Below, piece by piece: positions 37,413 through 56,510 of a stretch of 64,000 nt of DNA; position 1 is the stretch's first letter; every line of letters begins with the position of its first letter. The notes beneath the pieces were generated by a model that did no database searches, had not been told where the DNA came from, and worked only from the letters and a program-made list of their open reading frames with translations. Origin of the DNA: Streptomyces sp. JH14. Lineage in GTDB: Bacteria > Actinomycetota > Actinomycetes > Streptomycetales > Streptomycetaceae. The stretch covers positions 1,116,001 to 1,180,000 of the forward strand of contig NZ_JAJNEL010000001.1 of the NCBI RefSeq assembly GCF_029428675.1. The letters are read 5' to 3'. A program made the translations under genes and the position numbers.

Positions 37413-38420
37413 TCAGGCAGCGAGCCGGCCCGGCACCACGGCCTGCGGACCGAACCTGTCCCGCAGTCGGTCCGCCACCGCCTCGATCCGCCGCGCCCGC
37501 TCGTCCACCGGGTCGAACGTCAGCTGATGTGCGGCACGTCCGCGGTCCGTCAGCCCTTCGGCGCGCAGCCCAATCCCCCGTACCCGGGCCCGCTGCAGCC
37601 CGAACGAATCATGGATCCGGTACGCGAGTTCGATGAGCGCCGCGGAGTGGGCGGTGGGCTCGCGGAGCGTACGGCTGCGGGTCAGCGTCGCGTAGCCGGT
37701 CCGGTCGGCGTAGCGCACGGAGACCGCGAGCGCCCGGCACACCTGCCCGTCCCCGCGCATCCGGGCCCCCAGCTCCTCGGTGAGCGACATGAGTGCGCGG
37801 CGCTGCCGTTCCGGGTCCAGCTCGTCGCGCGGGAAGGACCGCTCGGCGGCGACCGACCGGGCGGCGGCGTTCGGTACGACCACCGTACGGTCGATACCCT
37901 GCGCCCGCTCCCACAGTTCGCGCCCGGCCCGTACACCGGTGATCCGCTGCAGGGTGGCGAGCGGCGCCGCCGCGATCCGGCCGACGGAGTCCAGCCCGTA
38001 TCCGCACAGGGTACGGGCGGTCGCCGCCCCGACACCGTCCAGTGCGGTGACCGGTTTCGCCGCGAGGAAGGCGGCGCCCCCGCCACGGGGCACCACGAAA
38101 GTCGTCCCGGGTGCGGCCTGCCGCGCCGCCATGCGGGCCAGCATCGGGTTCTCGGCGGCCCCGATCGCGCAGTCCACCCCGTGCAGGGCGAGCGCACGGA
38201 CCCGGATCACCGCCGCCAGCCCCGCAACGTCCCGTCCGAAGTAGCGCAGCGCACCGCGCACATCGGCGAGCGCCCCGTCCGGCGGAGCCGCCTCGGCGAC
38301 CGGGGTGAACGCACCGAGGAGAGCGAGCAGCCCGGTGTAACCGGCACTGTCCGGCAGGCCGCCGCCGGCCTTGCGGAACCGCAGGTACAGGATCCCCGGC
38401 TCCTCATGCGTATCGCTCAT
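37413..38420 (-). CDS. ImuB-like Y-family polymerase homologue
   Basis: A 335-residue protein of the Y-family DNA polymerase fold: DVRGALRYFGRDVAGLAAVI (about residues 55-74), the helix-hairpin-helix LDGVGAATARTLCGYGLDSV, and little-finger region DRTVVVPNAAARSVAAERSF. The catalytic N-terminal D-x-D/FF motif of active Y polymerases is not seen; the N-terminus reads EEPGILYLRFRKAGGG. It thus looks like ImuB, the non-catalytic scaffold that brings DnaE2 to damaged DNA. It overlaps dnaE2 by 4 bp (ATGA) and shares its SOS control. The third partner, ImuA, is not present. Confidence 0.85.
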   Translation of the reverse strand: MSDTHEEPGILYLRFRKAGGGLPDSAGYTGLLALLGAFTPVAEAAPPDGALADVRGALRYFGRDVAGLAAVIRVRALALHGVDCAIGAAENPMLARMAARQAAPGTTFVVPRGGGAAFLAAKPVTALDGVGAATARTLCGYGLDSVGRIAAAPLATLQRITGVRAGRELWERAQGIDRTVVVPNAAARSVAAERSFPRDELDPERQRRALMSLTEELGARMRGDGQVCRALAVSVRYADRTGYATLTRSRTLREPTAHSAALIELAYRIHDSFGLQRARVRGIGLRAEGLTDRGRAAHQLTFDPVDERARRIEAVADRLRDRFGPQAVVPGRLAA

Positions 38421-41400: not shown

Positions 41401-41923
41401 CGGCCGCCCGGTCGGGGCGGCCCGCGGCCAGCGCCCTGCCGACCTCGGAGGCCGGACCGAGCAGCACGGTGAGCCCTTCGGCGGGCAGCGCGGACCGGTC
41501 GACCAGGGGCTGCCCGGTACCGGTCCGCAGCTCGCCGGTCACGGCATGCGCGGCGGTGACGAGTCGGCACAGCTCCGCCCAGCCGCGTGCGCCGTCCCGG
41601 GCGAGGAAGGTGACCCGGGGAGTCGATTCATCGATGAAGGCACCACCACGGACCGGGGTCCGCAGCCGATGCGAACGCCCGCTCCCCCGCGGACGCTCCG
41701 CACCCTCCGCCTCCACCGCGAGCCCCACCCCGAAGAGCGGCCGCACCCCGGCCTTGCCACAGGCCTTGGCGAAGCGGACCGCGCCCGCGAGGGTGTCGCG
41801 GTCCGTCAGCGCGAGGGCATCCATCCCCTGCTCGGCGGCGCGTTCCACCAGCCGTTCCGGGTGCGAGGCCCCGTAGCGCAGGGAGAACCCGGAAACGGTG
41901 TGCAGATGCGTGAACCCGGGCAC
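38417..41923 (-). CDS. dnaE2: Error-prone DNA polymerase III alpha subunit
   Basis: A 1168-residue C-family polymerase of the DnaE2 group, which copies damaged DNA during the SOS response. The N-terminal PHP domain (FTHLHTVSGFSLRYGASHPE), the catalytic aspartates in LPDIDIDVESARR (about 430-442), FLTVAQVADDVREMKVRVAARG, and the C-terminal OB domain (ETVLVAGAKAATQTPPIRSG) are visible. GTG at 41923 is chosen: GGAGG is 5 bp upstream, while the GTG at 41929 overlaps that site. A LexA-type box lies 60 bp upstream and the ImuB-like gene follows with a 4-bp overlap. Confidence 0.95.
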   Translation of the reverse strand: MPGFTHLHTVSGFSLRYGASHPERLVERAAEQGMDALALTDRDTLAGAVRFAKACGKAGVRPLFGVGLAVEAEGAERPRGSGRSHRLRTPVRGGAFIDESTPRVTFLARDGARGWAELCRLVTAAHAVTGELRTGTGQPLVDRSALPAEGLTVLLGPASEVGRALAAGRPDRAAALLASWREIYGDDLRLEAVHHGREGTGPGSLRLAARTVGFAAEQGVRAVLTNAVRYADAGQGPVADVLDAARGLVPVDPRRAPLDSGERWLKGDRAMRETAERIASAAGLGRDGGARLLAETRRTADACVVEPERDLGLGAVHFPEPHLVGASRRTAQRVLASRAAAGMVLRGYDRRRDYWERMHHELDIIDYHGFATYFLTVAQVADDVREMKVRVAARGSGAGSLVNHLLGIAHADPVEHGLLMERFLSKRRFVLPDIDIDVESARRLDVYRAIIGRFGTERVATVAMPETYRVRHAIRDVGAALSMNPAETDRLAKAFPHIRARDARAAMEELPELREVAQEKEKYGRLWELVEALDALPRGIAMHPCGVLLSDASLLRRTPVVPTSGEGFPMAQFDKEDVEDLGLLKLDVLGVRMQSAMAHAVMEVKRASGQEVDLDAVPPGDPETYRLIRSAETLGCFQIESPGQRDLVGRLQPATFHDLVVDISLFRPGPVAADMVRPFIEARHGRAPVRYPHPDLEGPLRETYGVVVFHEQIIEMVHIMTGCGRDEADRVRRGLSDPELQGRIKAEFVQRAVRKGYTAEVVGRAWEIIEAFGSYGFCKAHAVAFAVPTYQSAWLKAHHPAAFYAGLLTHDPGMYPKRLLLADARRRGVPVLPLDVNRSAAVHRIELVSGKGEDSGVWGLRLALSDVHGISEAEVARIEAGQPYTSLLDFWQRARPGKPAAERLAQVGALDAFGANRRDLLLHLTELHRAQRGTGTRSGSGGAQLPLGEGQKTGSLGLPDLNDAERLSAELGVLSMDVSRHLMGDHHAFLKELGAVPAKRLREARHGETVLVAGAKAATQTPPIRSGRRVIFTTLDDGTGLVDLAFFDDSHAACAHTVFHSWLLLVRGVVQRRGPQSLSVVGEAAWNLAELAELRSTGGLDAVSARLAEVPAESAAQEESPDGRAADNGRRIHLPTGYEMNPWSDLQPPGEGVPTGRKLWHQSPGSAG

Positions 41924-41982
41924 CCGCACCTCCTGGACCGATCCGTACTCACCACCCCCTCACCTCCACCATAGACCAAGTT

Positions 41983-42117: not shown

Positions 42118-43203
42118 TCAGCCGATTTCGGCCTCGAACGCCGCCAGCGCCTCCGGCACCGGCTGGAAGAAGGTCTCCCCGCCCGAGGTGCAGTCGCCGC
42201 TGCCGCCGGAGGTCAGGCCGATCGCCTTGTCGCCCGCGAAGAGCGAGCCCCCGCTGTCGCCCGGCTCGGCGCAGACCGTCGTCTGGATGAGGCCTTCGAC
42301 GATGTCGCCGTTGCCGTAGTTCACCGTGGCGTCGAGGGCGGTGACCTGTCCGTCGTGCACCTGGGTGGTGGAACCGCTGCGGGTCACCGTCATGCCGACG
42401 GTCGCCTCGGCCGCTCCGGTGATCGGCTGGGTGGACCCGTTGTAGAGATCGACCTCGCTGGGGTGCGGCGTGTCGGAGGTGTACTTCACCAGCCCGAAGT
42501 CGTTGCCCGGGAATTCGGAGCCCGCGTTCGTACCGATCTCCGCGCCGCCCTGCGCGTCGGACCAGCTGCTGATCGCCTCGGTGCAGTGCCCCGCGGTCAG
42601 GAAGTACGGCTCACCGTCCTTGACCACGTTGAAGCCGAGCGAACAGCGTCCGCCGTTGCCCCAGATCGCATCACCGCCCGCGATGAACGGTTTGAACTCC
42701 CCGGCGGACTTCTTGAGTTCGGCCTTGCCACCCAGCGCGTCGACGACCGCACCGAGTCTGTCCCAGGCCGCGCCGTCGACCGTACGGTCGGCGGTGACGA
42801 CCACCTTGTTGCTGACCGGGTCGACGGCCCATGAGGTGCCGGGGATCGTGGCCTTGGCAGTGAGGGTCTGCCGGGCCGACAACAGCTCCGCGAGCGAGTT
42901 CGTCACGACCCTGGCCCTGCCGCCCGCCTGCCGCACCTGCTCGGCGGCGGCCTGGTCGACCACGTTCACGACCAGGTTCTTCGACGCGGCGTCGTAGTAC
43001 GAGCCGGCCGCGTCGCCGCCCAGATCCTGCCCGAGAGTGGTGGCGAGCTTTCCGGCCGCGTTCGCTGTCAGGGTCCGGACCGTGAACTGCGGTACGTCGT
43101 CACTGGCGTTCGCACTCTGGAACGTGATTCCCGCTGCGACCAGGGCGACAACGGCCGATCCGGCCATCACCGCACGCTTCCTGGATATGCGTCGATGCTT
43201 CAA
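42118..43203 (-). CDS. Streptogrisin-type serine protease precursor (S1E)
   Basis: A 361-residue secreted protease of the alpha-lytic/streptogrisin family. Signal peptide (to about residue 33), pro-domain that helps folding (about 34-165), then the catalytic domain with His in TAGHCTE, Asp in NDFGLV and Ser in [11 protein letters not shown] (about residue 314). Cysteine pairs CSL...GHC and VCAEP...GDC are in place. TTG at 43203 is chosen: GGAGG is 6 bp upstream and it begins a normal signal ([12 protein letters not shown]). The precursor is longer than streptogrisins A and B (near 300) because of a larger pro-region, nearer to the C/D types. It lies one gene away from the Fxs cluster. Confidence 0.93.
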
Positions 43204-43555
43204 CTTCGACCTCCTGTGGGGCCGCACACAGGCAAGTGGGGTGCCTGGGTACGGAGGATGGAGCCGCCCACTATTCCGACCGGAAAGATCGCACACAAGG
43301 TCGACTTCAGGACGCACACACGGCATCACCGTTTCACCCCGCCCCGTTCACCTCCCCGAAGTCACACCATGTCGGTTCCTTTTGCGAACACCCCGTGCAA
43401 CCGATCGGTCGGCAATGGGTGAGGACTGGACCTGTCCGGTACTCGCCGTTGATTTACCTCAATTGCCATTCCACACAGGGACTTTGATGAGCCATCATCG
43501 AATTGCACGGAGAAGCCGGGCACTCGGTGCCCGCACGAAGTGAAGGAGGCGCGGA
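43204..43555. other. Divergent intergenic region
   Basis: It holds the promoters of the protease (minus) and the hydrolase (plus) but no gene. No confident -10/-35 pair or operator was identified. AAGGAGG at 43543-43549 is the hydrolase ribosome site. Confidence 0.4.
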
Positions 43556-44431
43556 GTGCGCAATCGGGTGCGCGCAAGGGACGGGCGGCATCTGATGGTG
43601 GAGCGTCTGGGCGACCCACGGGGCAGACCGGTCTTCCTGCTCCACGGAACTCCCGGCAGCCGGCTCGGTCCGGCCCCGCGCGGCATGGTGCTGTACCAGC
43701 GCAAGACACAACTGATCACCTACGACCGGCCGGGCTACGGCGGCTCCGACCGGCTGCCGGGCCGGTCCGTCGCCGATGTCGTCGAGGACGTACGGGCCAT
43801 CGCTGACCATATCGGGCTGGACCGGTTCGCCGTGGTGGGCCGCTCCGGCGGCGCCTCACACGCCCTGGCCTGCGCCGCACTGATGCCCGAGCGGGTGACC
43901 CGTACCGCCGCGCTGGTCACCCTGGCACCCTGGGACGCGGACGGCCTCGACTGGTTCGAAGGGATGGCGCCTTCCAACGTGCTGGCGTACAGCACGGCGG
44001 CGGCCGATCCGGACGGGCTCGCGGAGTCGTTCATCTCCCGGTCCGCGGTGATCAGACAGAATCCGGTGCGGCTCATCGACGACCTGCGCCGGGAGCTGAC
44101 CGATTCCGACCGGATGGTGGTGAACGACGCAGGAGTTCGTTCTCTGCTACTGAACAACTACCGTGAAGGGCTGCGCACTTCCGCATACGGCTGGATCGAC
44201 GACGCCATCGCTTTCAGTCATCCGTGGGGGTTCGACCCGGCGGACATCAAGGGTCCGGTCATGCTCTGGCACGGCGAGAAGGACGTGTTCTCACCGGTCG
44301 GCCACTCGCGCTGGCTGGCTGAACGCATCCCGAACGCCACCGTCGTGCTGGAGCCGGCGGCCGCGCACTTCGACGCGTTGCACGCACTTCCCCGGATCCT
44401 CAACTGGCTGCTGGACACGCCCGCCGGCTGA
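43556..44431 (+). CDS. Alpha/beta hydrolase
   Basis: A 291-residue cytoplasmic hydrolase with no signal peptide. It has the HG oxyanion segment VFLLHGTPGSRLG near residue 27, LITYDRPGYGGSDR near 55, the nucleophile elbow GRSGGASHAL (Ser about 96), the acid region LWHGEKDVFSP near 240, and the catalytic His in AAAHFDALH near 273. This pattern fits the esterase/epoxide hydrolase-like group, but the substrate is unknown. GTG at 43556 has GGAGG 6 bp upstream. It converges on fxsT and is separated from it by a strong hairpin. Confidence 0.88.
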   Translation: MRNRVRARDGRHLMVERLGDPRGRPVFLLHGTPGSRLGPAPRGMVLYQRKTQLITYDRPGYGGSDRLPGRSVADVVEDVRAIADHIGLDRFAVVGRSGGASHALACAALMPERVTRTAALVTLAPWDADGLDWFEGMAPSNVLAYSTAAADPDGLAESFISRSAVIRQNPVRLIDDLRRELTDSDRMVVNDAGVRSLLLNNYREGLRTSAYGWIDDAIAFSHPWGFDPADIKGPVMLWHGEKDVFSPVGHSRWLAERIPNATVVLEPAAAHFDALHALPRILNWLLDTPAG

Positions 44432-44509: not shown

Positions 44510-47500
44510 TCACACCGCGAGCGGCTCCAGTTCGCGCTGGAACCGGCTCTCCTCCCGGGCGATCCGGGTCAGCGGATGATCGTCGCCGAGCTGCCGGGAC
44601 AGTTCCTCGACCGCCTCCGCCCTGACCCTCAGCGCCTCGTCCTTGCGCCCCAGCGCATCGAGCGTGACCGATACGTTCGCCATCACCGCCAGGGTCTCCG
44701 GATGATGCGCGCCGAGAACCTCCCGGAGCTGTCCGGCCACGCGTCGTTCGGTCGTCAGCACGAGCTCGAGATCACCGTCCTGCTCAGCGGTCGCGTTGGC
44801 CAGATTCATCACGCTGAACAGCGTGTTGGGGTGCTCGGGGCCGTACACCTCCCGCATCGTTGCGACCACCCGGGTCAGTACCGCCACCGACTCCTCCGCC
44901 GCTCCCGCTCCCGAGTGGTAGACACCGAGGTTGTTCAGGGCGGCCAGCGTGTACGGGTGCCGCTCGCCCGGCACCTTCATGTACTGGTCGACGACCTCCT
45001 GCGCGGCGTCCCTGGCTTCGGTCGGCTCACCCGCCGCGAACAGGTCGGCCGCCATATTGAGGTCGCAGGCCAGCGATTCGGGGTTCGCCGAGGTGTATTT
45101 GGCCCGGTACCTGGCACGGGTGGCCACGGTGAGCCTCCGGGCATCCTCCAGCTTGCCCGCCCTGCGCAGTGACACCGCGAGACTCTTCGCCGCACTCAGC
45201 GTGCCGGGGAAGGCCCGTCCCAGCGTCGCCTTGTAGCTGTCGTACGTGCGGCTGAGGATGGAAACGGAGTCCTCGTACCGCCCGACGTCACGCAGGTCGC
45301 GGGCCAGGTTCATGGCGGATGACAGGCTGTACGGATGCTCCGGGCCGAGCACCTCGACACGCCGGTCGTACACGTCCTGGTCGATTTCGCGGGCCCTGGC
45401 GTACTGGCCGACGACCCGCAGGGTGAAGGCCAGGTTGTTGGCCGCTGCCAGCGTCCTCGGGTGGGAGTCGTGGAAGATCTGGCTGAACCCGTCGGTGGCT
45501 TCCGTCGCCAGCTCGATCGCCCTGCTGTACTCCCCCAGCGTGCCGAGGTCCGTCGCGAGGCTGCTGGTGCTCATGTACGTGTGCGGATGCTCCGGGCCCA
45601 GTATCTCCCGCTGGCGGCTGAGAGTGATCTCGTCGAGCTCCCTCGCCTCGACGTAACGGCCGCGCGAGCGGTAGATGTTGGAGAGGTGGAAGCAGAGGTA
45701 CAGATACTGGATGTCCCGCTCCCCCAGCGTCTCCTTCCAGATGGCACGCAGTTCCTCGCAGAGCGTGGTGGCCGTCCTGAAGTCACCGCGCTTCCAGAGA
45801 TAGCGGACCCGGTCGATCAGGAGCCTGCGGGCCTCGGGCTCCTTGCAGTTGCGTGCATCGGACGGGCCGAGGTGCGGCCAGATGGTGGCGAACTGCGGCC
45901 AGGTCGACGGGTTGTCGATCGGCTCGTCGTCATCGGGCCGGGCGCCGGCCAGAATGCGGTGCACGACATGCCGGGCGTCCTGCTGCTCCTCCTCGCTGAG
46001 CTGTGCCCGGATGACGGCCTGGACGAGGCGGTGCACCTGGATGGAGTTGGAGACCTGGTCGACCTTGGCGAGGGCGAACCGGCCGATCTCCCGGATGACC
46101 CGGCCCAGCACCAGCTTCTCCTGGAGCGAGGCGTCGTACGGCTTCAGTGCCTCGATCATCTCCTTGCTGTACAGGAGGTTCCCCGAGATCGGCTCGGGGG
46201 CGAAGAAGGCGCAGAGCTGCAACAGCCGCACCGCGGCGGGTGAACGCTCCTTGAGGCGTTCGATGGAGATGTTCCAGGTCGCGGCGACCGGTTCCGGGTA
46301 GCCGGCGGGCTGGTTGAGCGCCAGGACCTCGGGGGCCTGCTGGGCCAGCTGCTCCAGGTAGGTGTCGATCGGGGTGGCGGTCTCCGCGATCCAGGCCGCC
46401 GCCTGTTCGACGGCGAGCGGCAGGTCACCGACTGCGGTGGCCACCTGCGCGGCGTCCTCGTCGCTCAGCCCCGGGGCACGGCGCTGGAGGTGTTCGATCG
46501 ACTCCTCGCGCAGGAAGACGTCCACGGGCAGCGCGTCGCCGTGCTGGGACCATGCCTGGTTCCGGGAGGTGACCAGGATGTGGCCGGAACCGCCCTGCGG
46601 AAAGTAGCGCCTGAGCCGTTCGGGGTCGTCGGCGTTGTCGAAGACCAGCAGCCAGCGGTCCGACGGCACACCCCGCCGCAGCAGGTCCACGGCCTCCTGG
46701 GAGGCGGCCGCCATGTCGTCGCCGCCCTGGGCACCGAGCCGGACGGCCAGCTCGGCGAGCCCGGCCACCACGTCGTCGATCTGCTCGGAGGATATCCACC
46801 ACACGAGGTCGTAGTCGGCCATGAAGCGGTGCACGTACTCCAGGGCGACCTGGGTCTTGCCGACGCCGCCGAGCCCGTACAGGGTCTGCGGCTGGGGCAG
46901 TACGACGGCCATGCCGCCGCCGAGCTGGTCGCGCATCCGCTCCAGAACGAGGGAACGACCGGTGAAACCGGGGTTGCGCGGCGGTGCGTTCCAGATCCTC
47001 GGGACAGTGCCGGGGAAACGCGGTCCGGGCGAAACACCGTCGGTGAGCTGCACGGGCCGGTCCAGGGCGCGCAGCAGTGCGGTGGTGGCGTGCACCTCGT
47101 CGAGCCGGAAGAGGTCGACCGGATTGCGGTCGATGTACGGCGCGGACAGCCGTACGTCGCCGACCCTCAGCGGCAGGAGTTGGCGCCGGCCTGCGCCGGG
47201 GTCCTCGGCGACGGCCCGGTCCCACAGGTTCACCGCGCGCTGCGACTTGAGGTAGGCGCTGGAGAGCAGCACCACGGTGCGGGCCGCGTTCTCGGCGACG
47301 GCGGTGGCCGGTTCCCGGGTCTCCCGTTCGGCGGACACATCGCGCGGCACGACCCGGAATCCAGCCCGGGTGAGGACGGATTCGATCCAGTCGGCCCACA
47401 TCCGGTTCTCCGCCACATAGCTGAGGAAGAGATCGGCGGGCAGTGCGGGCCTGCGCCGGGTGAACGCGTCGCGGATGCGCAGCCGGACCTCATCGGCGAC

Positions 47501-48448
47501 CGGCGGCATCGAGGTGATCTGCTGGTCGGTGATGACGGAGGTGAGCCGCTCGAAGGCGGAGAGCAGCGAGTTGGTGAGACCGGCCTCGTCGCCGAAGGTG
47601 GCGAGGGTCTCCTCGTAGGCGTAGTAGGGGCGGTACGGAATCTCCACCGCGCCCCAGTAGGCGGTGAGTTCGTCGCCCGACAGGTCCCGTGGCAGCCGGT
47701 CGAACTTCAGCCGGGCCAGCGCCCTTCCGGCGTCGGCCTTCTCCTTCTCGCCCTCGTCGATGCGCATCGGGACGGGGAAGATGGAGATGGGGCGGCCGGT
47801 GTAGCGCTCGGAGATCTGCCGCGCGACGGAGGCGGCACCGTCGATCGACTGGTCGCTGAGCGTGAAGCAGTCGACGAGCACGTCGGGCAGATGAACGGTG
47901 CAGATGTCGGCGATGTCGCTGAGGCCGGTCCGGCTGTCGATGAGGACGTAGTCGTAGTTGGCCTTCATGTCGTCGCGCAGTGCGTCGAAGAAGTGGCCGC
48001 CGCCGAGCCGGTCGTAGAAGTTGTCCCAGTCGAACGTGGAGACGGTCGCGGAGTACTCACGGTTCTGCCGTCCGGCGGAGACGAAGTCGAGCGTTCCGCC
48101 CTGCGGGAACTCCCAGCCGAGTGCCTCGGGGGTGAGCGAGACCGCGTGCGGCTGGATGCGCGCGTAGTCGCGGTGCCAGTCGTCGGCGCGCTGGACCGGG
48201 CTGGTCGCGGCCCAGGCGTACTCGGTGATCAGGTCGATGACACCGGTGGTGGCGCCGAGTGTCGACGGGTCGAGGAACGGGTGGAAGAACCGGTGGAGTC
48301 CGGGTGCCTCCAGGTCCCAGTCGACGGCCAGCACCCGTTTGCCGTTGGCGGCGAGAATCCAGGCGGTGTTGGCCAGGGCCATGGTGCGCCCCGTGCCGCC
48401 CTTGTACGAGTAGAAGGTGACGATGCGTCCGTCACGACTGGCCGTCAT
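44510..48448 (-). CDS. fxsT: FxSxx-COOH system TPR/NB-ARC protein
   Basis: A 1312-residue multidomain protein. Residues 1-300 are a ParA/CobQ-like P-loop domain (FYSYKGGTGRTMALANTAW). About 335-480 is a TIR-like domain (DLFLSYVAENRMWADWIESV). About 500-860 is an NB-ARC STAND ATPase (Walker A YGLGGVGKTQ near 526, Walker B WLLVFDNAD). From about 910 to 1300 run TPR units, many ending in GPEHPxT. This layout, next to FxsA, FxsB and FxsC, matches the FxsT proteins of FxSxx RiPP loci and resembles NLR-type sensors of biological conflict. ATG at 48448 has GGAGG 6 bp upstream and lies 17 bp inside fxsC. Whether it senses or uses the modified peptide is unknown. Confidence 0.92.
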   Translation of the reverse strand: MTASRDGRIVTFYSYKGGTGRTMALANTAWILAANGKRVLAVDWDLEAPGLHRFFHPFLDPSTLGATTGVIDLITEYAWAATSPVQRADDWHRDYARIQPHAVSLTPEALGWEFPQGGTLDFVSAGRQNREYSATVSTFDWDNFYDRLGGGHFFDALRDDMKANYDYVLIDSRTGLSDIADICTVHLPDVLVDCFTLSDQSIDGAASVARQISERYTGRPISIFPVPMRIDEGEKEKADAGRALARLKFDRLPRDLSGDELTAYWGAVEIPYRPYYAYEETLATFGDEAGLTNSLLSAFERLTSVITDQQITSMPPVADEVRLRIRDAFTRRRPALPADLFLSYVAENRMWADWIESVLTRAGFRVVPRDVSAERETREPATAVAENAARTVVLLSSAYLKSQRAVNLWDRAVAEDPGAGRRQLLPLRVGDVRLSAPYIDRNPVDLFRLDEVHATTALLRALDRPVQLTDGVSPGPRFPGTVPRIWNAPPRNPGFTGRSLVLERMRDQLGGGMAVVLPQPQTLYGLGGVGKTQVALEYVHRFMADYDLVWWISSEQIDDVVAGLAELAVRLGAQGGDDMAAASQEAVDLLRRGVPSDRWLLVFDNADDPERLRRYFPQGGSGHILVTSRNQAWSQHGDALPVDVFLREESIEHLQRRAPGLSDEDAAQVATAVGDLPLAVEQAAAWIAETATPIDTYLEQLAQQAPEVLALNQPAGYPEPVAATWNISIERLKERSPAAVRLLQLCAFFAPEPISGNLLYSKEMIEALKPYDASLQEKLVLGRVIREIGRFALAKVDQVSNSIQVHRLVQAVIRAQLSEEEQQDARHVVHRILAGARPDDDEPIDNPSTWPQFATIWPHLGPSDARNCKEPEARRLLIDRVRYLWKRGDFRTATTLCEELRAIWKETLGERDIQYLYLCFHLSNIYRSRGRYVEARELDEITLSRQREILGPEHPHTYMSTSSLATDLGTLGEYSRAIELATEATDGFSQIFHDSHPRTLAAANNLAFTLRVVGQYARAREIDQDVYDRRVEVLGPEHPYSLSSAMNLARDLRDVGRYEDSVSILSRTYDSYKATLGRAFPGTLSAAKSLAVSLRRAGKLEDARRLTVATRARYRAKYTSANPESLACDLNMAADLFAAGEPTEARDAAQEVVDQYMKVPGERHPYTLAALNNLGVYHSGAGAAEESVAVLTRVVATMREVYGPEHPNTLFSVMNLANATAEQDGDLELVLTTERRVAGQLREVLGAHHPETLAVMANVSVTLDALGRKDEALRVRAEAVEELSRQLGDDHPLTRIAREESRFQRELEPLAV

Positions 48449-49763
48449 CCGTGTCCTCCGCATCCGTCGCAGGGTGGTGTGTCTCCGGTATGAAGTGCGT
48501 CTGCGCCATCGGACCCATGAGCCGGGTCCGTTCGGTGTGTCCGCCGCCTGTCGCGGGTGGATAGACCGCCGCGTGTCTCAGGTACTGCTGGGCCGCCACT
48601 TCAACCACTTGCGGCAGGATCTGGCCGAAGGCCTCCATGCTCGGTACGCCTCTCGCGGCGGCGCGGCAGTAGGCCCGCCCCTGGCGCATCTTGGTCGGCA
48701 TGGTCTGTTCGAGTTTCTCGGTCAGCTCGGCCTCCGCGGCCCGGCTCTGGGGGTCCTCGCGGTTCCACGGCACGACCATCGTCACCCAGGGGCGGTTCTC
48801 GGCGTCGAAGGCGGCGAGCCGTCGGCGGCGGTCCTCGTCCTGCAGGGCCCAGCGGTCGACGAGCAGGATCTCCGGTCTGCTGGGGGGCTGTTTGCCCTCC
48901 GGATGCCCGGGCTCCTCGTCGAAGGAGGCCACGGTGGCCTGGTAGTTGAGGGAGCGCACGAGGTCCTCGGCGACATAGGCCAGCGGCCGTGCCGAGGCCG
49001 GGTGGTAGGGGTTCCAGTCCTGCGGGTTGTCGCCGTAGTAGTCGGCGCTGCGCCCTTCGGGGAGGTCGTGGCGGGTGGCCGCCGCGATGGTCACCTGCAT
49101 GGGGCGGGGGCCGGCCACTCCGCTGCTCGGTGAGCCGAAGGCGCTGGGGGCGAGTCGGTAGTCGACGGGTCGGCCGGTGCCGATCCGCATGGTGTCGGCG
49201 ACATTGACGATGCGTTTGGCGAGTTCGTAGACCGCGCGCTCGTACTCCTCGGCGAAGAGCCTGAGCTTGATCAGTCCGTACAGTCCGTCGCTGACGTAGC
49301 GGTCGCCGAAATCACGGTGATTGAACTGTAACCGCTCGGCAGGGCCTGGTAGTTGACTGGGCGGAACCGGCACCCACAGGGCTGGGACGATGGCCTCGGC
49401 GGGCTGGTTGTGGCGGGCCCGGTAGTGGATCGCGCGCTGGGCGAACGCGTACCACTCCTTGCCGCACATCTCGCTGGCGAAGTAGCGCGGCGAGAACAGC
49501 GGGACGAACACCCGGCAGGTGGCGAGCACTTCGCCGAGCCGTTCCGACCATCCCTCGCCGGAGCGTATCTCGCGGTCGATGAACCCGGCGGGCGCGCCCG
49601 CGGGCAGATCGGTCATGGCCATCACATGGCCGCAGAGATCCTGGAAGAGCCGCTCGACCCACATATCGGGGTCCGTTCCACCGCCGTACCCCGGTGTATG
49701 TGCATAACTCAAGAAGAAGTACGGCCGATGGTCCGCCGCTCGCTGCTGCGTTGTTGCGTGCAC
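48432..49763 (-). CDS. fxsC: TIR-like protein FxsC
   Basis: A 443-residue protein of the FxsC type, found only with FxSxx precursors and FxsB. The N-terminal half is TIR-like (YFFLSYAHTP near residue 15, then FIDREIRSGEGWSERLGEVL, CRVFVPLFSPRYFASEMCGK with the pattern of TIR helices). The second half (MQVTIAAATRHDLPEGRSAD, EILLVDRWALQDEDRRRRLA) is a second Rossmann-like module. A clear catalytic NADase Glu cannot be assigned by eye. GTG at 49763 is the likely start with GGGGG upstream; GTG at 49787 is possible. The 3' end overlaps fxsT by 17 bp, so they are made together. Confidence 0.9.
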   Translation of the reverse strand: MHATTQQRAADHRPYFFLSYAHTPGYGGGTDPDMWVERLFQDLCGHVMAMTDLPAGAPAGFIDREIRSGEGWSERLGEVLATCRVFVPLFSPRYFASEMCGKEWYAFAQRAIHYRARHNQPAEAIVPALWVPVPPSQLPGPAERLQFNHRDFGDRYVSDGLYGLIKLRLFAEEYERAVYELAKRIVNVADTMRIGTGRPVDYRLAPSAFGSPSSGVAGPRPMQVTIAAATRHDLPEGRSADYYGDNPQDWNPYHPASARPLAYVAEDLVRSLNYQATVASFDEEPGHPEGKQPPSRPEILLVDRWALQDEDRRRRLAAFDAENRPWVTMVVPWNREDPQSRAAEAELTEKLEQTMPTKMRQGRAYCRAAARGVPSMEAFGQILPQVVEVAAQQYLRHAAVYPPATGGGHTERTRLMGPMAQTHFIPETHHPATDAEDTDDGQS

Positions 49764-49996
49764 ACGACCCCCGTCCTGTGTGAGCACCCGCACCCGAGGC
49801 GTGAAAGGAATGCGAGCAAATTCATCATTCCGGAGCGGACCTTGCTCCACCCCCATGGCGTTCGGTCATTCAACGCCACTTTTCGGTCATCCGTTCCCTG
49901 ACGCAGCGGATCGCGTCCTTGATCCCATTCGCTCGCGCGTCGTTCCCTCCCAGTTGTCCCGTACGTGCCGGAGTCCGGGCCGGGCCGGATCCTGCG

Positions 49997-52291
49997 TCAG
50001 ATCTCCTTTCGCATCAGGTCCAGCACCTGCTTTCCGCTGACGGTGAGCTCGGCCGCACGCTCCAGCGTTTCGAGGGCCTGCGGCACACCGTCGAGATAGT
50101 GCGGCTCGAATGCACCGAGCGCCACCCGTTCGTACGTTTCGGCCAGCAGCCGGGAAAGCGGAACCGGCTCTTCCCTCCAGGGCATTCGATGCTCCCAGGA
50201 GCCGTCCGCCGCGTAAAGATCCGTGACGTCCAGAAGCGCCCGCAGCTTGGCCCGGCGGAAGCCGCGCACCAGAGTGAGCGGCCACTGCCCGGCGCTTTCG
50301 TCCGGCCGGATGCCCAGTGCGCCGTATCCATGCCGCCCCACCGAGGGCTCCCCCGGCGGCAGGCCGGTCAGCGGCGTCAGGGTGGTGAGGCCGTCCGCCA
50401 TCTCGGCCGCGTACCGCGGTGTGCGCCGCACGATCTGGACCCAGGCGCTGCCGAGCGCGGCGCTCAGCCGTCCGGCCTCGTCCGGCCGCAGCCCGGCCGC
50501 CGGGCGTGCGGTGAAGCAGCCGCGGTACGGGTCCAGGTCGTCGAGCACCCAGTCGGGTGCGGAACCGGGTTCGGAACCCGGCCCCGCGTCGCCTGCCGAG
50601 CCGGGCGCGCCGCCGCCGAGCCGGCGCACCGGCAGCCAGCCCCGGCCGGCCTCCCCGCCCCGCACGATCCGCCGTTCGAAGGAACTGTCCCCGTGGTCAC
50701 CCGCACGGCGCACCAGAAAGCCGTCCTCGGTGGCCCGCACCCCGACCGTGCCGGCCTCCGGACCGTCGATCCGCAGCGCGCCGAGGCCGGGAAGGGCGAG
50801 TGTGCCGTCCCGGTATGCCACCGGTACGGCCAGATCCAGCCCGGCCCGGACCGCGGCGGCTGCGACGTACGACGAGAGGCGCCAGGCGATCCTTCCGGCA
50901 TCCGGACGCTCCTCGTGCACGGCGGACAGCGCGTCATGCAACCAGCTGCGGGCGTAGGGGTGGGCAAGCGCCTCGTCCAGGCCCCGCGATCCCTTCTCGG
51001 AGCCCTCGACCGTGACCGCCAGCTCCCAGGCAGCCGCCCAGTGGTCCCCACCGCGCCCGTCGAGGTCGCTGTGGAGCAGGGCGAGCATGGTGCGCGTGAG
51101 GTCCTGCTGGGCGACGGCCAGCTCGACGGGCTCCGCCACCGCGGGCGGTACGACGGATGCCGCCGTGCGCTCCTCGATGCCGAGCACCAGGGCCTTGAGA
51201 TCGTCGCAGTAGACGGACGGGTGATCGAACAGCAGGGTGGGATCGACGGCGCCCACCGACTTGTAGCGGTGGGTGTAGAGACCGCCGCCGCACGAACGTA
51301 CAACGGGGCAGCTGCGGCAGGTCTCGCTGACACCGTCCAGACCGAGTTGCCGGGCCCGGACCCCGGGATGGGCCGCGACCTCGTCGAAGGCGTGCGTGAA
51401 GACGTCGAACCCGGTGGCCGCCGCACCCTCGTAGGCGCTCTTGAGCGAGTCGACCTGCTCCAGCTGGCCGTCGGTCTCGACGACGACGAGGTCGGTGGGG
51501 GCGAGTCCGAGGGACTCGGTGAGGCTGGGACCGCCGCTCAGGGTGGACAGGACCGAGGAGAAGAGCCTCACCGGTACCGGACGCCCCTGCTCCTGCCAGC
51601 GGTCGAAGACCGCGAGGAGCCAGTCGGCATAGGCGGTGCGGGAGCCGTCCGGACGCGACGGCGGCTCGTCCCAGGTGGCGTGCGGCAGGAGGAAGTCGAT
51701 GAGCGGCGGATCGAGCTCGACAAGGGCGTCGAGGACCGCACGCGGGTCGTTCTCGATGTCGATCGTGCACAGGAGCCCGAGGTTGAGATGGCGGTAGCGC
51801 TCCTGGCGGAGCAGCTCGACGGCCTTGAGAACCAGGGGATGGCTGCTGCGTCCGTCGGCGAACCGGCGGTGCCGGTCATTGGCTTCGCGGTCGCCGTCGA
51901 GGGAGATGCCCACCTTGACGTCGTACTCGCTGAAGAGGTCGAGATAGCGGGGGCTGAGCTGCAGACCATTGGTATGGATGCGGAGATCGAGCTCGGCGAC
52001 GCCCTCGAAGGCTGCGGTGAGTTCTTCGCAGATGCGCCGCAGTCGCGCGGGGCCCGCCAGTAGAGGCTCCCCTCCGTGCAGGATCACTGACACGGAGGGC
52101 AGTGCATGTGTCTTGGCATGCTCAGCCAGGCGCCGAGCAGTCCGGAAGATGACTTCGTCAGAGATTGTTTTCGGACGGGTACGCCAGCTCTGATCTGCAT
52201 GTTCATAGACATAGCAATGGTCGCAGGCAAGATCGCACCTGCTGTGAACCTTGAGAACGATTTCGCGGAATGGGACCAGGGGTCCAGTCAT
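49997..52291 (-). CDS. fxsB: FxsB radical SAM/SPASM cyclophane-forming maturase
   Basis: A 764-residue radical-SAM enzyme that cross-links residues of the FxsA C-terminus into a three-residue cyclophane. The radical-SAM cluster motif is C19-x3-C23-x2-C26 (RCDLACDHCYVYEHADQSW), followed by HGGEPLLAG and the SPASM region with CRSCPVVRSCGGGLYTHRY (about 345-365). The C-terminal 330 residues align with the HExxH domain often fused to or encoded beside FxsB, including GYGALGIRPDES and WREEPVPLSRLLAETYERVA, but the metal motif (HEFQH in relatives I recall) is RGFRR here (about 673-677). It follows fxsA after 84 bp of tandem repeats and precedes fxsC by 233 bp. Confidence 0.95.
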   Translation of the reverse strand: MTGPLVPFREIVLKVHSRCDLACDHCYVYEHADQSWRTRPKTISDEVIFRTARRLAEHAKTHALPSVSVILHGGEPLLAGPARLRRICEELTAAFEGVAELDLRIHTNGLQLSPRYLDLFSEYDVKVGISLDGDREANDRHRRFADGRSSHPLVLKAVELLRQERYRHLNLGLLCTIDIENDPRAVLDALVELDPPLIDFLLPHATWDEPPSRPDGSRTAYADWLLAVFDRWQEQGRPVPVRLFSSVLSTLSGGPSLTESLGLAPTDLVVVETDGQLEQVDSLKSAYEGAAATGFDVFTHAFDEVAAHPGVRARQLGLDGVSETCRSCPVVRSCGGGLYTHRYKSVGAVDPTLLFDHPSVYCDDLKALVLGIEERTAASVVPPAVAEPVELAVAQQDLTRTMLALLHSDLDGRGGDHWAAAWELAVTVEGSEKGSRGLDEALAHPYARSWLHDALSAVHEERPDAGRIAWRLSSYVAAAAVRAGLDLAVPVAYRDGTLALPGLGALRIDGPEAGTVGVRATEDGFLVRRAGDHGDSSFERRIVRGGEAGRGWLPVRRLGGGAPGSAGDAGPGSEPGSAPDWVLDDLDPYRGCFTARPAAGLRPDEAGRLSAALGSAWVQIVRRTPRYAAEMADGLTTLTPLTGLPPGEPSVGRHGYGALGIRPDESAGQWPLTLVRGFRRAKLRALLDVTDLYAADGSWEHRMPWREEPVPLSRLLAETYERVALGAFEPHYLDGVPQALETLERAAELTVSGKQVLDLMRKEI

Positions 52292-52303
52292 TCCACCAGT
52301 CTA

Positions 52304-52376
52304 GCCAGCCCGAAGGGGTGACCAGCTCTTACGGGCCCAAAGGGGTGACCGGTCCGGCCAGCCCGAAGAGGGTGCC
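52304..52376. repeat. Three tandem repeats between fxsA and fxsB
   Basis: Units with the core CCCGAAGGGGTGACC begin at 52309, 52336 and 52362, a period of 26-27 bp. Unit 1 (GCCAGCCCGAAGGGGTGACC, 52304-52323), unit 2 (CCCAAAGGGGTGACC, 52336-52350) and unit 3 (CCCGAAGAGGGTGCC, 52362-52376) differ by one to three bases. Unit 3 reaches the last base of the fxsA stop codon, and unit 1 lies 12 bp before the fxsB start. In the mRNA they would sit in the leader of fxsB. Confidence 0.75.
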
Positions 52377-52543
52377 TAGAGGGCCGAGTTGAAGGTCGAT
52401 GCCTGGGTCGGGCGACCGGTGGGAGCGGCGGACACCCGTCCGAGCTTCCTGGTGGCTTCTTTACCGCGCGCGTCGATCTCGGCGAGCGGCACACGGCTCT
52501 TCTTCGCGACGGCGAAGGAGAGGGAGGATTCAGAGGTCTTCAC
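52376..52543 (-). CDS. fxsA: FxSxx-COOH RiPP precursor
   Basis: A 55-residue precursor ending TFNSAL, that is Phe-Asn-Ser-Ala-Leu at the very C-terminus, the defining FxSxx-COOH motif. The leader holds the block SRVPLAEIDARGKEATRKLG, which resembles the leader of the family and is the likely FxsB recognition region. In this class FxsB joins the Phe ring to the Ser beta-carbon (established for 3-residue cyclophane enzymes). GTG at 52543 is chosen because AAGGA lies 5 bp upstream and the product then has the family length; an upstream ATG at 52618 gives an unlikely 80 residues. fxsB follows on the same strand. Confidence 0.92.
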   Translation of the reverse strand: MKTSESSLSFAVAKKSRVPLAEIDARGKEATRKLGRVSAAPTGRPTQASTFNSAL

Positions 52544-52755
52544 GGCCGTCCTTGATGGGATTGATCCGGACACGGAAACTGCACCGGCCAGCTGCACCAT
52601 TGCAGTGTCCGGCGGCACGACTTTACTCTCATGGCCTCGGTTGGCAACTGAGGACGTCCTCTCGCAACGCGAGCGTCACGTGAGACTGCCCGAGACACAA
52701 CGGAACCAGCCATTCCGCCATTTGGGCGAAGACAAAACCGCAGACGGGAGTGAAC

Positions 52756-53682
52756 ATGACGGCGATTCCCGGACCACTGCAGAGCCTGGTCTTCCGGAAC
52801 GCTGATCTGCCGGTGCTCTTTCACCACACGGACGCCATCGCGATCGCACGCCAGCGGGAGGCCGTGAATACCACCCGCTGGCAGCTGATCCTGCTGGTCG
52901 TGGGGGCATTACCGGCGGCGGTACCGTGGCACTGGGAGGTCGTTGACACGTTCCAACTGACCGACGCCATCGGCTCGTTGGCCTACCTCGGCGTCCTGAT
53001 CACGATGTACCTCACCTCGCGGCGCAAAGCAAAGTCGCATTGGCAACTCAATCGTTCGGCGGCAGAGTTCATCAAATCGATGTGCTGGCGCTACTCGGTG
53101 CACGGCTCACCTTTCGACACCGGCACCCAGCATCCGGAAGCGGTGTTCGCCAACCGGCTGGAAGAGGGACTGCAGGAGCTCAGAAAGGTCGGCTGGACGG
53201 ACCCGCGCGACCGGTCGGCCGATTCGGGCGGACTCATCACGGATTCTATGCGCGCATTGCGGGACAAGGCCTTCACCGTACGCAAGGAGACATATGTACG
53301 GGACCGGCTGATCGAACAGCGCAGTTGGTACCGCCGCCGTCAGGACGTGTCCCGGCGGGCCACTCTGGTCTGGTCGACCACGATTGCCGCGCTGACGGCC
53401 TTCGCCCTGGTCCTCGGCCTGCTGAGAACGTTCTCCGTCGCCCAGTCCTTCACCGCGACCGGGATGCTGTCCGCAGCCGCGGCGGCCTGTCTGGCCTGGA
53501 GCGAGATGCGCCGCCACCATCCCCTGATCTCCGCCCACTCGCTGGTGGAGAAGGATCTGGAGTCGATGCAGGTGGCGATGGAGACCACGCTGACCGAACG
53601 GCAGTGGCCGCGGGCTGTCTTCGAGACCGAGCGCATCGTCTCCCCGCAGCACACCGACTGGCTGGCCCGGCACCAGATGTGA
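52756..53682 (+). CDS. SLATT/DUF4231-type double 2-TM membrane protein
   Basis: A 308-residue membrane protein with two pairs of helices: about residues 42-58 and 71-88, then about 204-224 and 233-250. Each pair is followed by a long amphipathic helix, as in SLATT domains (SMODS- and SLOG-associating 2-TM effectors; the second copy corresponds to DUF4231 as I know it). Conserved-looking blocks are YLTSRRKAKSHWQLNRSAAE and YVRDRLIEQRSWYRRRQDVS. SLATT proteins are thought to form pores or channels controlled by nucleotide signals in conflict systems. ATG at 52756 has GGGAG 5 bp upstream. It is divergent from fxsA and faces a SLOG-type gene. Confidence 0.8.
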   Translation: MTAIPGPLQSLVFRNADLPVLFHHTDAIAIARQREAVNTTRWQLILLVVGALPAAVPWHWEVVDTFQLTDAIGSLAYLGVLITMYLTSRRKAKSHWQLNRSAAEFIKSMCWRYSVHGSPFDTGTQHPEAVFANRLEEGLQELRKVGWTDPRDRSADSGGLITDSMRALRDKAFTVRKETYVRDRLIEQRSWYRRRQDVSRRATLVWSTTIAALTAFALVLGLLRTFSVAQSFTATGMLSAAAAACLAWSEMRRHHPLISAHSLVEKDLESMQVAMETTLTERQWPRAVFETERIVSPQHTDWLARHQM

Positions 53683-53783
53683 AAAGTGGTCAGCACTCCG
53701 GCACCTGAGCGGTCGGGGGAACGGACACCCGCGCACGGCTCACCCCGCCCCCTGTCGTATACGAACGGCATACGCGGTTCCGG

Positions 53784-54263
53784 TCAGGCGCGCTCCACTC
53801 CGTCGCGCCAGATCACCGTCACCGGGCGGCCGAGCGTCCGGGCGTACGTCACGATGTCGCCCGTGCCGCCGAAACCGCGGGCCGGACGGCCGTCCCACAC
53901 CGCGAGCAGCCGGTCGCAGTGGTCGGCGATGTAGGCACCCGCCGCGTAGTACGCCTCGTCGGTGGAGTGCGGGAAGTCCAGCCGGACCTCGCGGGCCGCG
54001 CGGTCCTTGAGGCTCCGGTAGCGCGCCAGTTCGGGTCCGTCGGCGAAGCAGGCCTCGTAGTCACCGCTGGGGATGACCACGGTCAGTTCCGCTCCGCAGG
54101 CGAGTGCCAGGTCGGCGAAGAGCTGGTCCGCTCCCACAGCCAGGCTGGAGAGGGCTTCCAGGGAGCCGTCGAAGCCGCAGAGCACCGCTCGTATCCCGGC
54201 CATCACATGGGCGTGCGCTTCCTCGGGGATGCTGCGATGTCCGGTCACTCCGATACGTTTCAC
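53784..54263 (-). CDS. SLOG-type (YpsA/DUF1273-like) Rossmannoid protein
   Basis: A 159-residue protein with the Rossmann-like SLOG fold: VKRIGVTGHRSIPEEAHAHV at the start (G-x-T-GHR loop), LEALSSLAVGADQLFADLAL near residue 36, a central VVIPSGDYEACFADGPE, and CDRLLAVWDGRPARGFGGTGD near the end. SLOG proteins bind nucleotides or nucleotide-derived signals and are known partners of SLATT effectors. Here it is convergent with a SLATT gene, 101 bp away. GTG at 54263 is preferred since the frame upstream is Gly/Pro-rich. The ligand is unknown. Confidence 0.75.
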   Translation of the reverse strand: MKRIGVTGHRSIPEEAHAHVMAGIRAVLCGFDGSLEALSSLAVGADQLFADLALACGAELTVVIPSGDYEACFADGPELARYRSLKDRAAREVRLDFPHSTDEAYYAAGAYIADHCDRLLAVWDGRPARGFGGTGDIVTYARTLGRPVTVIWRDGVERA

Positions 54264-54471: not shown

Positions 54472-55371
54472 TCAGTAGACGCTGACGCCGTATGCGCTGA
54501 GCGCCTCGGTGACGGGCTGGAAGTACGTCGTACCGCCCGAGGAGCAGTTGCCGCTGCCGCCCGAGGTGAGCCCGATCGCCCGGGTGCCGGAGTAGAGCGA
54601 GCCGCCGGAGTCGCCGGGCTCCGCACAGACATTCGTCTTGATCATGCCGTAGACGATGTCTCCGCCGCCGTAGTTGACCGTGGCGTTGAGACCGGTGACG
54701 GTCCCGCTGTGGATGCCGGTGGTGGAGCCGCGCCGGGTGACGGACATGCCGACCGTGGCGTTGGCCGCGCTGGTGATGTCCTGACTGCCGACGGTGCCCG
54801 CGTGGGCGACCGCGGCGTTGTCGTACCGCACGATGCCGTAGTCGTTGGTCGGGAAGCTGGATCCGACCGTGGGGCCGATGTACGTCGAGTTCGACGAGTT
54901 CGTGTACCACGGCGGGTTGCCGTCGGTGCAGTGACCGGCGGTCAGGAAGTAGTAGGTGCTGCCGCTGCGGACGTTGAATCCCAGGGAGCAGCGCCACCCG
55001 GGGGCGTAGATGGCATCGCCGCCGGCGAGCAGCTTGCTGAACGTGCCGGAGGTGTGCTCGATCCGCAGGGCGCCGGCGTTGGCTCCGGCGGACTTCTTGA
55101 TCTGCTGGATCTCGGCCTTGGAGACCGTGCTGTCGACAGTGACCACGAGGCTCTTGGTCGCCGGGTCGATGTTCCAGGCGGTACCGGCGATGTCGGCGCC
55201 GAGCACGGCGTCGCTGGCGGCCGAGAGCTGGTTGGCGCTGAACGTGCCGGTAGCGTCGGCGTGGGCGCTGGGGACGGCGAGTGCGGCGACGGCGACAAGG
55301 CCTGCGGAGATCGCGACGACTCTGCTTCGTCTCGCCAGACCGCTGAGGGGGGTGGTGCGCCTGATCCTCAC
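54472..55371 (-). CDS. Streptogrisin A/B-type serine protease precursor
   Basis: A 299-residue precursor, the size of streptogrisin B. Signal peptide 1-38 (ends PSAHAD), pro-domain to about residue 115, then mature protease with [10 protein letters not shown], His in TAGHCTDG, Asp in NDYGIVRYD and Ser in [11 protein letters not shown] (about 253). Both disulfide pairs are visible. GTG at 55371 has GGGAGGA 9 bp upstream. This is the second S1E protease near the Fxs genes and is more compact than the one at 42-43 kb. A perfect hairpin terminator follows and several palindromes lie upstream. Confidence 0.94.
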
Positions 55372-55525
55372 TTCTGATTCCTCCCGAGGGGAAACGGGGG
55401 CCCGCCTGTGGGGTGGTCGGACCCGTGAGGCGCAGTCGGGGGCACGGCCGCACACCGCATTCCGGATGTGCGAAATGCGACGTGCTCCTGACAAGCGCTG
55501 CTCGGGAGTATTCAAGGCCGCAACT

Positions 55526-55537
55526 TCTTGCGCAAGA
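55526..55537. promoter_or_regulatory. Perfect 12-bp palindrome upstream of the protease
   Basis: TCTTGCGCAAGA is a perfect palindrome 155 bp before the protease start and close to a possible promoter. It may be an operator or activator site; no regulator can be named. Confidence 0.35.
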
Positions 55538-55572
55538 GTGCCTTTTGGCCTGAGCTCACCGGTCTGCGCAAG

Positions 55573-55633
55573 GGGTGCCCGGGACCCGTCGCAGGGTGCC
55601 CGGCACCCCCGCCGCATGGGATGCCCGGCACCG
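55573..55633. repeat. Three short palindromes in a row
   Basis: GGGTGCCCGGGACCC (55573-55587), GGGTGCCCGGCACCC (55594-55608) and GGATGCCCGGCACCG (55619-55633) are near-copies of one 15-bp palindrome, 21 and 25 bp apart. They lie between the protease upstream region and the DUF1684 terminator. They could be repeated operator sites or simple GC-rich repeats. Confidence 0.5.
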
Positions 55634-55645
55634 CGCACACGCACC

Positions 55646-55674
55646 GGCCCCGGCAGCACGCGGCTGCCGGGGCC
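55646..55674. terminator. Terminator downstream of DUF1684
   Basis: GGCCCCGGCAGC (55646-55657) and GCTGCCGGGGCC (55663-55674) form a perfect 12-bp stem with a 5-nt loop, 35 bp after the stop codon of the minus-strand DUF1684 gene. It would end the monooxygenase operon. Confidence 0.8.
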
Positions 55675-55709
55675 CGAACCGATCGGTCGCGACGGCGGGA
55701 AGCGCCGGA

Positions 55710-56510
55710 TCAGTTGTCGATCCGGTTGCGCTCCCCCGCCTCGACGGCGACCGGGAGGGTGTTGCCCGGCGGCGGGAAGGGGCAGATGAAGTGGTCGGCG
55801 AAGGCGCACGGCGGCAACAGGGCACGGTTGAGGTCGACCGTCACGCTGCCGTCCTCAGCCGGGGCGGCGGGGCGCAGGAAGCGGAAGCGGTAACTGCCGT
55901 TCCCGCTGGTGGTGTCGGCGAAGACCGCCCAGAGCGACCCGTCGGGCTCGACCGCGACCTGGAGGGTGTGCTCCGTACCGTCCACCACGAAGGCGATCTC
56001 CCCGCCGAGGCCGAGCCCACGCTCGACTCCGTCGGCGTTCTCGACCCGGACCGTGCGGGCGGTGTCGTACGCACGGAAGGTGCCCGGGAGTGCCCAGCGG
56101 GCGTCGTACGGCGTCGCCTGGACGGACCGGAAGGCGCGCCGCGCCGCTGAGCCCGGGTCGAAGTCCCGTACCGCCCAGAGACCTTCGCGGCTCAGCACGA
56201 CCAGCCGCCGCTCGCCGCACGCGACGCGGGAGGCCTCGATCGGGCCGCGGTCCGCGGTGAGCCGCACCTCACCGGCGAAGGGCTTCTCGTCGACGGTGAG
56301 CCCGTCCTCGGCGGCCGCCGTGAGCACCAGTTCGTCGCCGTCCTCCCGCCACTGCCCGGGAACGGCCGGAATTCGCCCCTCCGGGAAGTCGGAGATCCAG
56401 TGGGTACCGGTGAGGGAGAGCGGGCCGTAGGGCGCCGCGACCGTGGCGTTGCGCTCCTCGCGCCAGAGGTTCCAGTCCTGCTCCGCCTGCTGCTGTGTAT
56501 TCGTGCTCAT
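55710..56510 (-). CDS. DUF1684 protein
   Basis: A 266-residue cytoplasmic protein of the DUF1684 family. Typical blocks are [20 protein letters not shown] at the start, [20 protein letters not shown], and the C-terminal [20 protein letters not shown], which is the most conserved part of the family and rich in possible metal or substrate ligands. The biochemical role is not established. It begins 4 bp after the LLM monooxygenase gene and is the last gene of that operon. DUF1684 genes often accompany oxidoreductases, in line with this setting. Confidence 0.9.

Follow-up and report, generated by a model that had tools for sequence, protein, structure and literature searches.

The stretch analyzed here (the window) comprises 64,000 nt of DNA from Streptomyces sp. 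JH14 (contig NZ_JAJNEL010000001.1, positions 1,116,001 to 1,180,000) and is part of a 6.58 Mb contig in a genome of 6.93 Mb. It harbors an island in which an FxSxx-COOH system (fxsA, fxsB, fxsC and fxsT), i.e. a locus for a ribosomally synthesized and post-translationally modified peptide (RiPP), stands together with the genes of a double SLATT membrane protein, a SLOG-fold protein and an α/β-hydrolase. Following up an earlier note on this DNA, which had been made from the letters alone, we find that the link of SLATT and SLOG genes with fxs is real and recurrent in Streptomyces and its relatives, and that it fades outside the family. The island is made up as follows (coordinates refer to the window):

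43556..44431, plus strand: α/β-hydrolase (ABH) gene, convergent with fxsT; Abhydrolase_1, E 8e-21.
44510..48463, minus strand: fxsT; NF040586 with 1034 bits (cut-off 300), AAA_KGGVGR with 150 bits, TIR_2, NB-ARC and tetratricopeptide repeats (TPRs).
48432..49856, minus strand: fxsC; NF040588 with 234 bits and TIGR04276 with 247 bits (both FxsC domains of NCBIfam, N- and C-terminal); TIR_2, E 7e-9.
49997..52291, minus strand: fxsB(H), radical SAM/SPASM maturase; TIGR04269 with 579 bits (cut-off 370), NF040587 with 404 bits.
52376..52600, minus strand: fxsA, precursor peptide ending in FNSAL; TIGR04268 with 36.4 bits (cut-off 28).
52601..52755, no strand: divergent intergenic region between fxsA and SLATT, studied in an alignment of 24 hand-picked intergenic regions.
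52756..53682, plus strand: gene of the double SLATT membrane protein, a predicted pore effector; SLATT_3, E 4e-37 (128 bits), and SLATT_1, E 5e-34 (117 bits), Pfam cut-offs 26.3.
53784..54263, minus strand: gene of the SLOG-fold protein (159 residues, start GTG at 54263), a predicted nucleotide binder or processor by its predicted structure; convergent with SLATT.

Along the minus strand the four fxs genes follow each other in the order fxsA, fxsB, fxsC, fxsT and all exceed their NCBIfam cut-offs, which bears out the full FxSxx locus (FNSAL precursor, maturase, FxsC and FxsT) claimed in the earlier note; an FxSxx-ending precursor, a maturase of the FxsB family and the partners FxsC and FxsT, the hallmarks of an FxSxx-COOH system, are all present. 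The start of fxsA, picked by eye, is either ATG at 52600 or GTG at 52597. An FxSxx C-terminus is seen in 72 of 79 FxsA relatives extracted with a permissive cut-off (E up to 1); the other seven may be wrong extractions. The FxsB protein of the window carries a fused β-hydroxylase (HExxH) extension in its inactivated form (NF040587), and relatives of FxsB occur in at least 125 of the 199 genomes examined from the genus. At another locus (L074:6231-8806; G and L numbers are our handles for genomes and loci) FxsB is short, and behind it comes a protein of its own that matches the aKG-HExxH peptide hydroxylase model; it is the inactivated remnant of this form that the FxsB of the window carries as a fusion. 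In diverged fxs clusters there is also an AAC(3)-like acetyltransferase (Antibiotic_NAT), which may acetylate the peptide (L071:8862-9635, L073:5150-5917, L076:9893-10849 and L081:12326-13162); at L072:9224-12190 this enzyme is fused to FxsB.

On the other side of fxsA the earlier note had placed both a double SLATT and a SLOG gene in divergent orientation. This holds for the double SLATT, a SLATT_3-SLATT_1 fusion, but not for the SLOG gene, which is convergent with SLATT and not divergent from fxsA. With a simple threshold, hydrophobic segments of the SLATT protein are found near residues 44-62, 68-86 and 208-226, i.e. three of the four expected for two two-transmembrane domains; its profile matched nothing in the PDB except a designed coiled coil (E 0.011). 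The intergenic region contains a promoter-like TTGCCA-N16-TAAAGT for fxsA on the minus strand (52642-52647 and 52620-52625; found by eye) and, upstream of SLATT, the dyad GGAAC-N5-ATTCC (52702-52716), which recurs in the form GGAAC-N5-RTTCC in 18 of the 24 aligned regions and is a possible operator. Together the promoter-like pair and the dyad suggest that the fxsA side and the SLATT side are each under their own control. For the SLOG candidate no Pfam family reached the cut-off (best match E 0.03, not a SLOG model); its AlphaFold2 model, however, has a mean confidence (pLDDT) of 95, and Foldseek matched this model with YpsA/DUF1273 (2nx2, E 1.4e-8), with ShosA, DprA and AMP-bound LOG, and, at rank 32, with the SLOG domain of ThsA bound to 3'cADPR. 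Its relatives keep invariant residues in the stretches GVTGHR, GAD and VWDG-P-RG-GGT. The name SLOG given in the earlier note is thus correct by predicted fold (YpsA/DprA/LOG), but not by sequence model.

The earlier note had set the co-occurrence of SLATT/SLOG with fxs as a check beforehand, and this co-occurrence is found in genus and family and fades outside the family. The refuting outcome named there, SLATT/SLOG genes that adjoin fxs loci only rarely, is thus not what the genus shows. In the 199 genomes of the genus we found 63 SLATT matches in 62 genomes, 56 of them close relatives of the window SLATT (at least 43% identity, 55 genomes) and seven remote ones (27-33% identity), near which neither FxsB nor SLOG was seen among the matches compared. 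Among the FxsB and SLOG matches listed (84 and 58 rows, respectively), FxsB lies within 7 kb of at least 52 of the 56 close relatives, where by our own arithmetic well under one would be expected at random positions, and a SLOG ortholog stands tail-to-tail with SLATT within 11 kb for at least 55 of the 56, in 53 cases within 1.5 kb. Of the four close relatives that lack a nearby FxsB, one (G028) stops at a contig edge, where L157 shows an FxsB end; for the other three (G158, G057 and G182:C26) the stretch fetched contained no fxs genes. A separate scan of 80 named SLATT loci, several of which are cut by contig ends, gave SLOG in 80, FxsB in 78, FxsC in 71 and FxsT and the hydrolase in 70 each. 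At L103, L128, L133 and L149 FxsB is present and fxsT/fxsC are absent or partial despite long flanks; G054 has FxsB and the hydrolase, and its fxsT and fxsC were not recognized. In the 121 genomes of the family scan FxsT is found within 15 kb of 72 of the 82 SLATT matches (62 within 10 kb). Conversely, SLATT lies within 15 kb of 73 of 100 long FxsT genes, compared to none of nine short ones (G481 and G551, N-terminal fragments of genes that are in the count already, are excluded from these numbers).

The position of SLATT relative to fxs varies. Among the matches listed for the genus, 43 loci have SLATT and the fxs operon in divergent orientation and nine have SLATT downstream of fxsT on the same strand; beyond the genus, but within the family, SLATTs with only 26-32% identity adjoin the hydrolase gene next to fxsT. 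This low identity led us to consider that SLATT was recruited independently in two layouts, which was not upheld, as a tree with plasmid SLATTs as the outgroup unites the fxs-linked SLATTs, close copies included, in a single clade (support 95/85). Rows L170-L174 (duplicates), L212 (long branch) and L252 (partial) were dropped from this tree; an earlier one including L212 had been distorted by its long branch. It therefore looks like SLATT was recruited once and then resided with fxs for long, through rearrangement. At L235:7700-9716 a tandem pair of SLATT genes adjoins fxsT where the hydrolase gene stands elsewhere, and the hydrolase is found at the opposite end.

Could such a linkage simply reflect vertically inherited neighbors without functional tie? 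Named Streptomyces loci near that of the window mostly keep their flanking protease genes, and the 11 hydrolase-linked (type-B) loci of other genera largely have common flanks (exceptions: L198 and mostly L242), so that synteny is a possible explanation for these. However, among 15 loci with the SLATT type of the window (type A), those beyond the subgroup of the window have hardly any flanking genes in common, while fxs, SLATT and mostly also SLOG and the hydrolase remain together. As the flanks differ almost completely there, the type-A linkage is not plain synteny; the linkage also persists across changes of layout. We thus consider plain synteny very improbable as the explanation of the whole.

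The α/β-hydrolase was left out of the member list in the earlier note. It is a recurrent member of the conserved set: in the window 78 bp separate the ends of its gene and fxsT, among the 18 FxsT loci from other families it stands beside fxs at six, and at several loci of other genera it lies beside SLATT on the same strand. Of its triad, Ser97 is kept in all 104 alignment rows and Asp243 and His271 in 103 each, and the enzyme may process the FxsA peptide. A hydrolase with an intact triad often near to a full RiPP pair (FxsA/FxsB), together with the acetyltransferases of diverged clusters, would also fit a locus that makes a RiPP for export, as an antibiotic or a developmental signal, with the hydrolase as its maturation enzyme and SLATT for immunity or transport. 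Yet among the island proteins scanned by profile none matched a transporter family, the NLR-like (nucleotide-binding leucine-rich repeat-like) and TIR domains of fxsT have no obvious role in the ordinary making of a RiPP, and plasmid-borne SLATT relatives go with TIR genes in stretches where no RiPP gene is annotated. We regard this explanation as improbable.

In the earlier note an assay for NAD+ hydrolase (NADase) activity was proposed for both FxsC and FxsT. A catalytic TIR domain carries the motif S..Y..S..C..E, with the catalytic Glu at its end. In FxsC the presumed catalytic residue, E134 (in CGKEW), is kept in 120 of 123 alignment rows (L147, where the frame runs off, is not among them); in a comparison with the TIR protein 3h16 the alignment ends in KE at the place of E134, but is non-significant (E 0.38). 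In FxsT, by a gap-free match anchored on a conserved Trp downstream, the corresponding column holds Glu in only one of 131 rows (eight have gaps) and mostly Leu or Val. The Lys of the NB-ARC P-loop, on the other hand, is kept in all 131 rows, and the ParA-like P-loop of FxsT reads KGGTGR. The TIR domain of FxsT is thus probably inactive or degenerate, which would leave FxsC as the only good NADase candidate. With the Glu kept in FxsC and lost in FxsT, and the NB-ARC Lys retained, FxsT looks like an NLR-like switch with a scaffold TIR and FxsC like the enzyme. Sequence searches of the PDB gave nothing significant for FxsC, the SLOG protein or the two TIR stretches.

SLATT relatives stand beside TIR genes elsewhere, too. 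At 11 plasmid loci, hand-picked from 77 matching records to span species, a gene annotated as TIR is adjacent to the SLATT relative (annotated DUF4231) in ten cases and at most three genes away in one; neither a RiPP gene nor an NLR-like FxsT is annotated in the stretches fetched. Enterobacterial and Vibrio plasmids (L245, L247, L249, L250, L251 and L253), two of them only 5-6 kb in size, carry a compact TIR-SLATT module, in which the SLATT-like gene (DUF4231) is convergent with a gene for a TIR protein of ~134 residues. Phage records yielded no SLATT relative, and plasmid records two matches to FxsT, over 63% of its length. Passages of PMC9503650 describe TIR-SLATT neighborhoods in phages and predict SLATT to be a membrane effector gated by ADP-ribose (ADPr) derivatives, and according to passages of PMC12632851 SLATT is required for phage defence by DRT10.

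Taken together, we propose that fxsABCT, the hydrolase and the double SLATT, joined by SLOG in one subgroup, may work as one NLR-TIR-SLATT conflict pathway (abortive infection or self-recognition) tied to the modified peptide, a proposal for which we see even chances. The parts, their linkage through rearrangements and the kept active-site residues are read from the sequences, and from them we infer every step of action. FxsB would form a cyclophane by cross-linking FxsA at its FxSxx end, and the modified peptide, perhaps trimmed by the hydrolase, would be the ligand read by FxsT. Upon a trigger FxsT, as a STAND ATPase, would oligomerize and its catalytically dead TIR would gather FxsC, which would turn NAD+ into a nucleotide signal. 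This signal would open SLATT, whereupon the membrane leaks, and the SLOG protein might bind the signal or break it down and thereby set a threshold. In its most specific form the proposal would have the cyclophane peptide serve an NLR-like sensor as ligand or safety catch; through a dead scaffold TIR the sensor would switch on FxsC, the product of FxsC would open a dedicated SLATT pore, and a YpsA-like SLOG protein would end the signal. This would be the first RiPP-to-NLR-to-membrane-pore circuit, and we consider it doubtful. If the proposed pathway is true, a modified peptide would feed an NLR-like switch in bacteria, and the function of FxSxx peptides could be reduced to simple toxicity and NAD+ assays. 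The dedicated SLATT clade is a plausible membrane effector for FxSxx systems, and the intact TIR of FxsC together with the probably dead one of FxsT yields a definite sequence of steps that can be tested.

Besides the common flanks of the type-B loci, several observations weigh against a single pathway. Four loci have a SLATT-SLOG pair and no fxs genes in the vicinity (G158, G057, G182:C26 and L140), a fifth (L155) has the pair and no FxsB, while fxsB, fxsC and fxsT occur without SLATT at G167, G067 and G049, of which G167 and G067 also lack SLOG and keep the hydrolase; the modules are thus separable. Within the family 27 of the 100 long FxsT genes have no SLATT within 15 kb. The 20 further FxsT loci comprise 18 from other families, where SLATT is found at one (L212), and two from the genus, both without SLATT. 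No SLOG gene was found in other genera at loci where SLATT is beside the hydrolase, and SLOG is therefore not essential to the scheme. At unlinked actinobacterial SLATT loci (10 neighbor proteins from six loci scanned) TIR is found at one (ThsB-type, directly upstream) and at none of the other five among the neighbors scanned. As for the enzymes, FxsT has a Glu two columns further on in 51 of 131 rows, so that a misalignment could hide an active site, and the predicted structure of FxsC is poor (pLDDT 55.8), with no fold match in the PDB at E 0.001 or better, so the case for FxsC stands on its sequence. The separability in particular would be explained if SLATT and SLOG were a two-gene defence or signaling module of their own, sharing a genomic island with fxs and no common signal. 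Clustering of defence genes is frequent, and by their orientation SLATT and fxs are on separate transcripts in the window. Against such a separate module stands the observation that one SLATT clade tracks one FxsT architecture (long, not short) in several layouts and, for type A, among unrelated flanks, whereas loose clustering would be expected to yield varied partners. We hold two independent modules to be possible, if somewhat unlikely.

Around the island of the window, genes for streptogrisin-like proteins with alpha-lytic protease prodomains are located on both sides (42118-43329 and 54472-55809) and recur at nearby Streptomyces loci. A gene for a DNA polymerase III alpha subunit (DnaE2-like) and an ImuB-like gene lie just outside (37413-41929), and between 30001 and 36000 the G+C content drops to 0.64-0.67; this stretch includes a transposase gene (31865-32359). 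Elsewhere in the same genome the FxsT model has additional matches, at G000:C1:214639-219000 (several close together) and G000:C2:218620-221076. Among the island proteins scanned no PADLOC model matched SLATT, SLOG or FxsC, and the PADLOC matches obtained were off-target (PDC-M28B on the ParA part, a weak Csx1/Csm6 on the TPR part and pVip on the radical SAM part).

Compared to known systems, the island shares features with several and coincides with none of them in its parts. Thoeris consists of a TIR enzyme, a SLOG-fold partner and an effector, with ThsA being a SIR2-SLOG protein. The island follows the same logic of TIR enzyme, SLOG-fold partner and effector, but its SLOG is a stand-alone YpsA-like protein and its membrane part is SLATT; no SIR2 domain was found in the island proteins scanned and no Thoeris model was among the PADLOC matches. 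Cyclic oligonucleotide-based anti-phage signaling systems (CBASS) are defined by a CD-NTase, and none was found among the same proteins. With the TIR-SLATT pairs in the passages of PMC9503650 the island has a SLATT beside a TIR gene in common, but here the TIR is that of FxsC, and an NLR-like FxsT and a RiPP are added. SLATT is likewise part of the DRT10 defence, where the relevant passages of PMC12632851 name it as required and its partner is a reverse transcriptase, and, in passages of PMC7699616, of a SLATT-associated RADAR system, where the partner is an RNA editor.

Close as well are the standalone FxSxx peptide-processing conflict systems of Kaur et al. 2020 (eLife, PMC7159879), whose description makes the novelty asserted in the earlier note ('not described before') only partial. 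The passages of that paper on these systems suggest the FxSxx peptide to be a toxin or a signal, and they share with the island an FxSxx precursor, a radical SAM/SPASM enzyme and an AP-ATPase-TPR protein, as well as the inactive MinD/ParA-like domain that the AP-ATPase has in standalone actinobacterial forms. The systems described there differ from the island in having a zincin-like peptidase at their core, and SLATT, SLOG and an α/β-hydrolase are not among the partners given in the FxSxx section; the SLATT passages of the same paper concern GAP1 systems. In the open-licence literature searched we found neither a mention of a SLATT/SLOG/hydrolase link to fxs nor an experimental output assigned to FxSxx peptides. 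The fxs half of the island has thus been known since 2020, whereas the link with SLATT, SLOG and the hydrolase is real, unusually tight and new.

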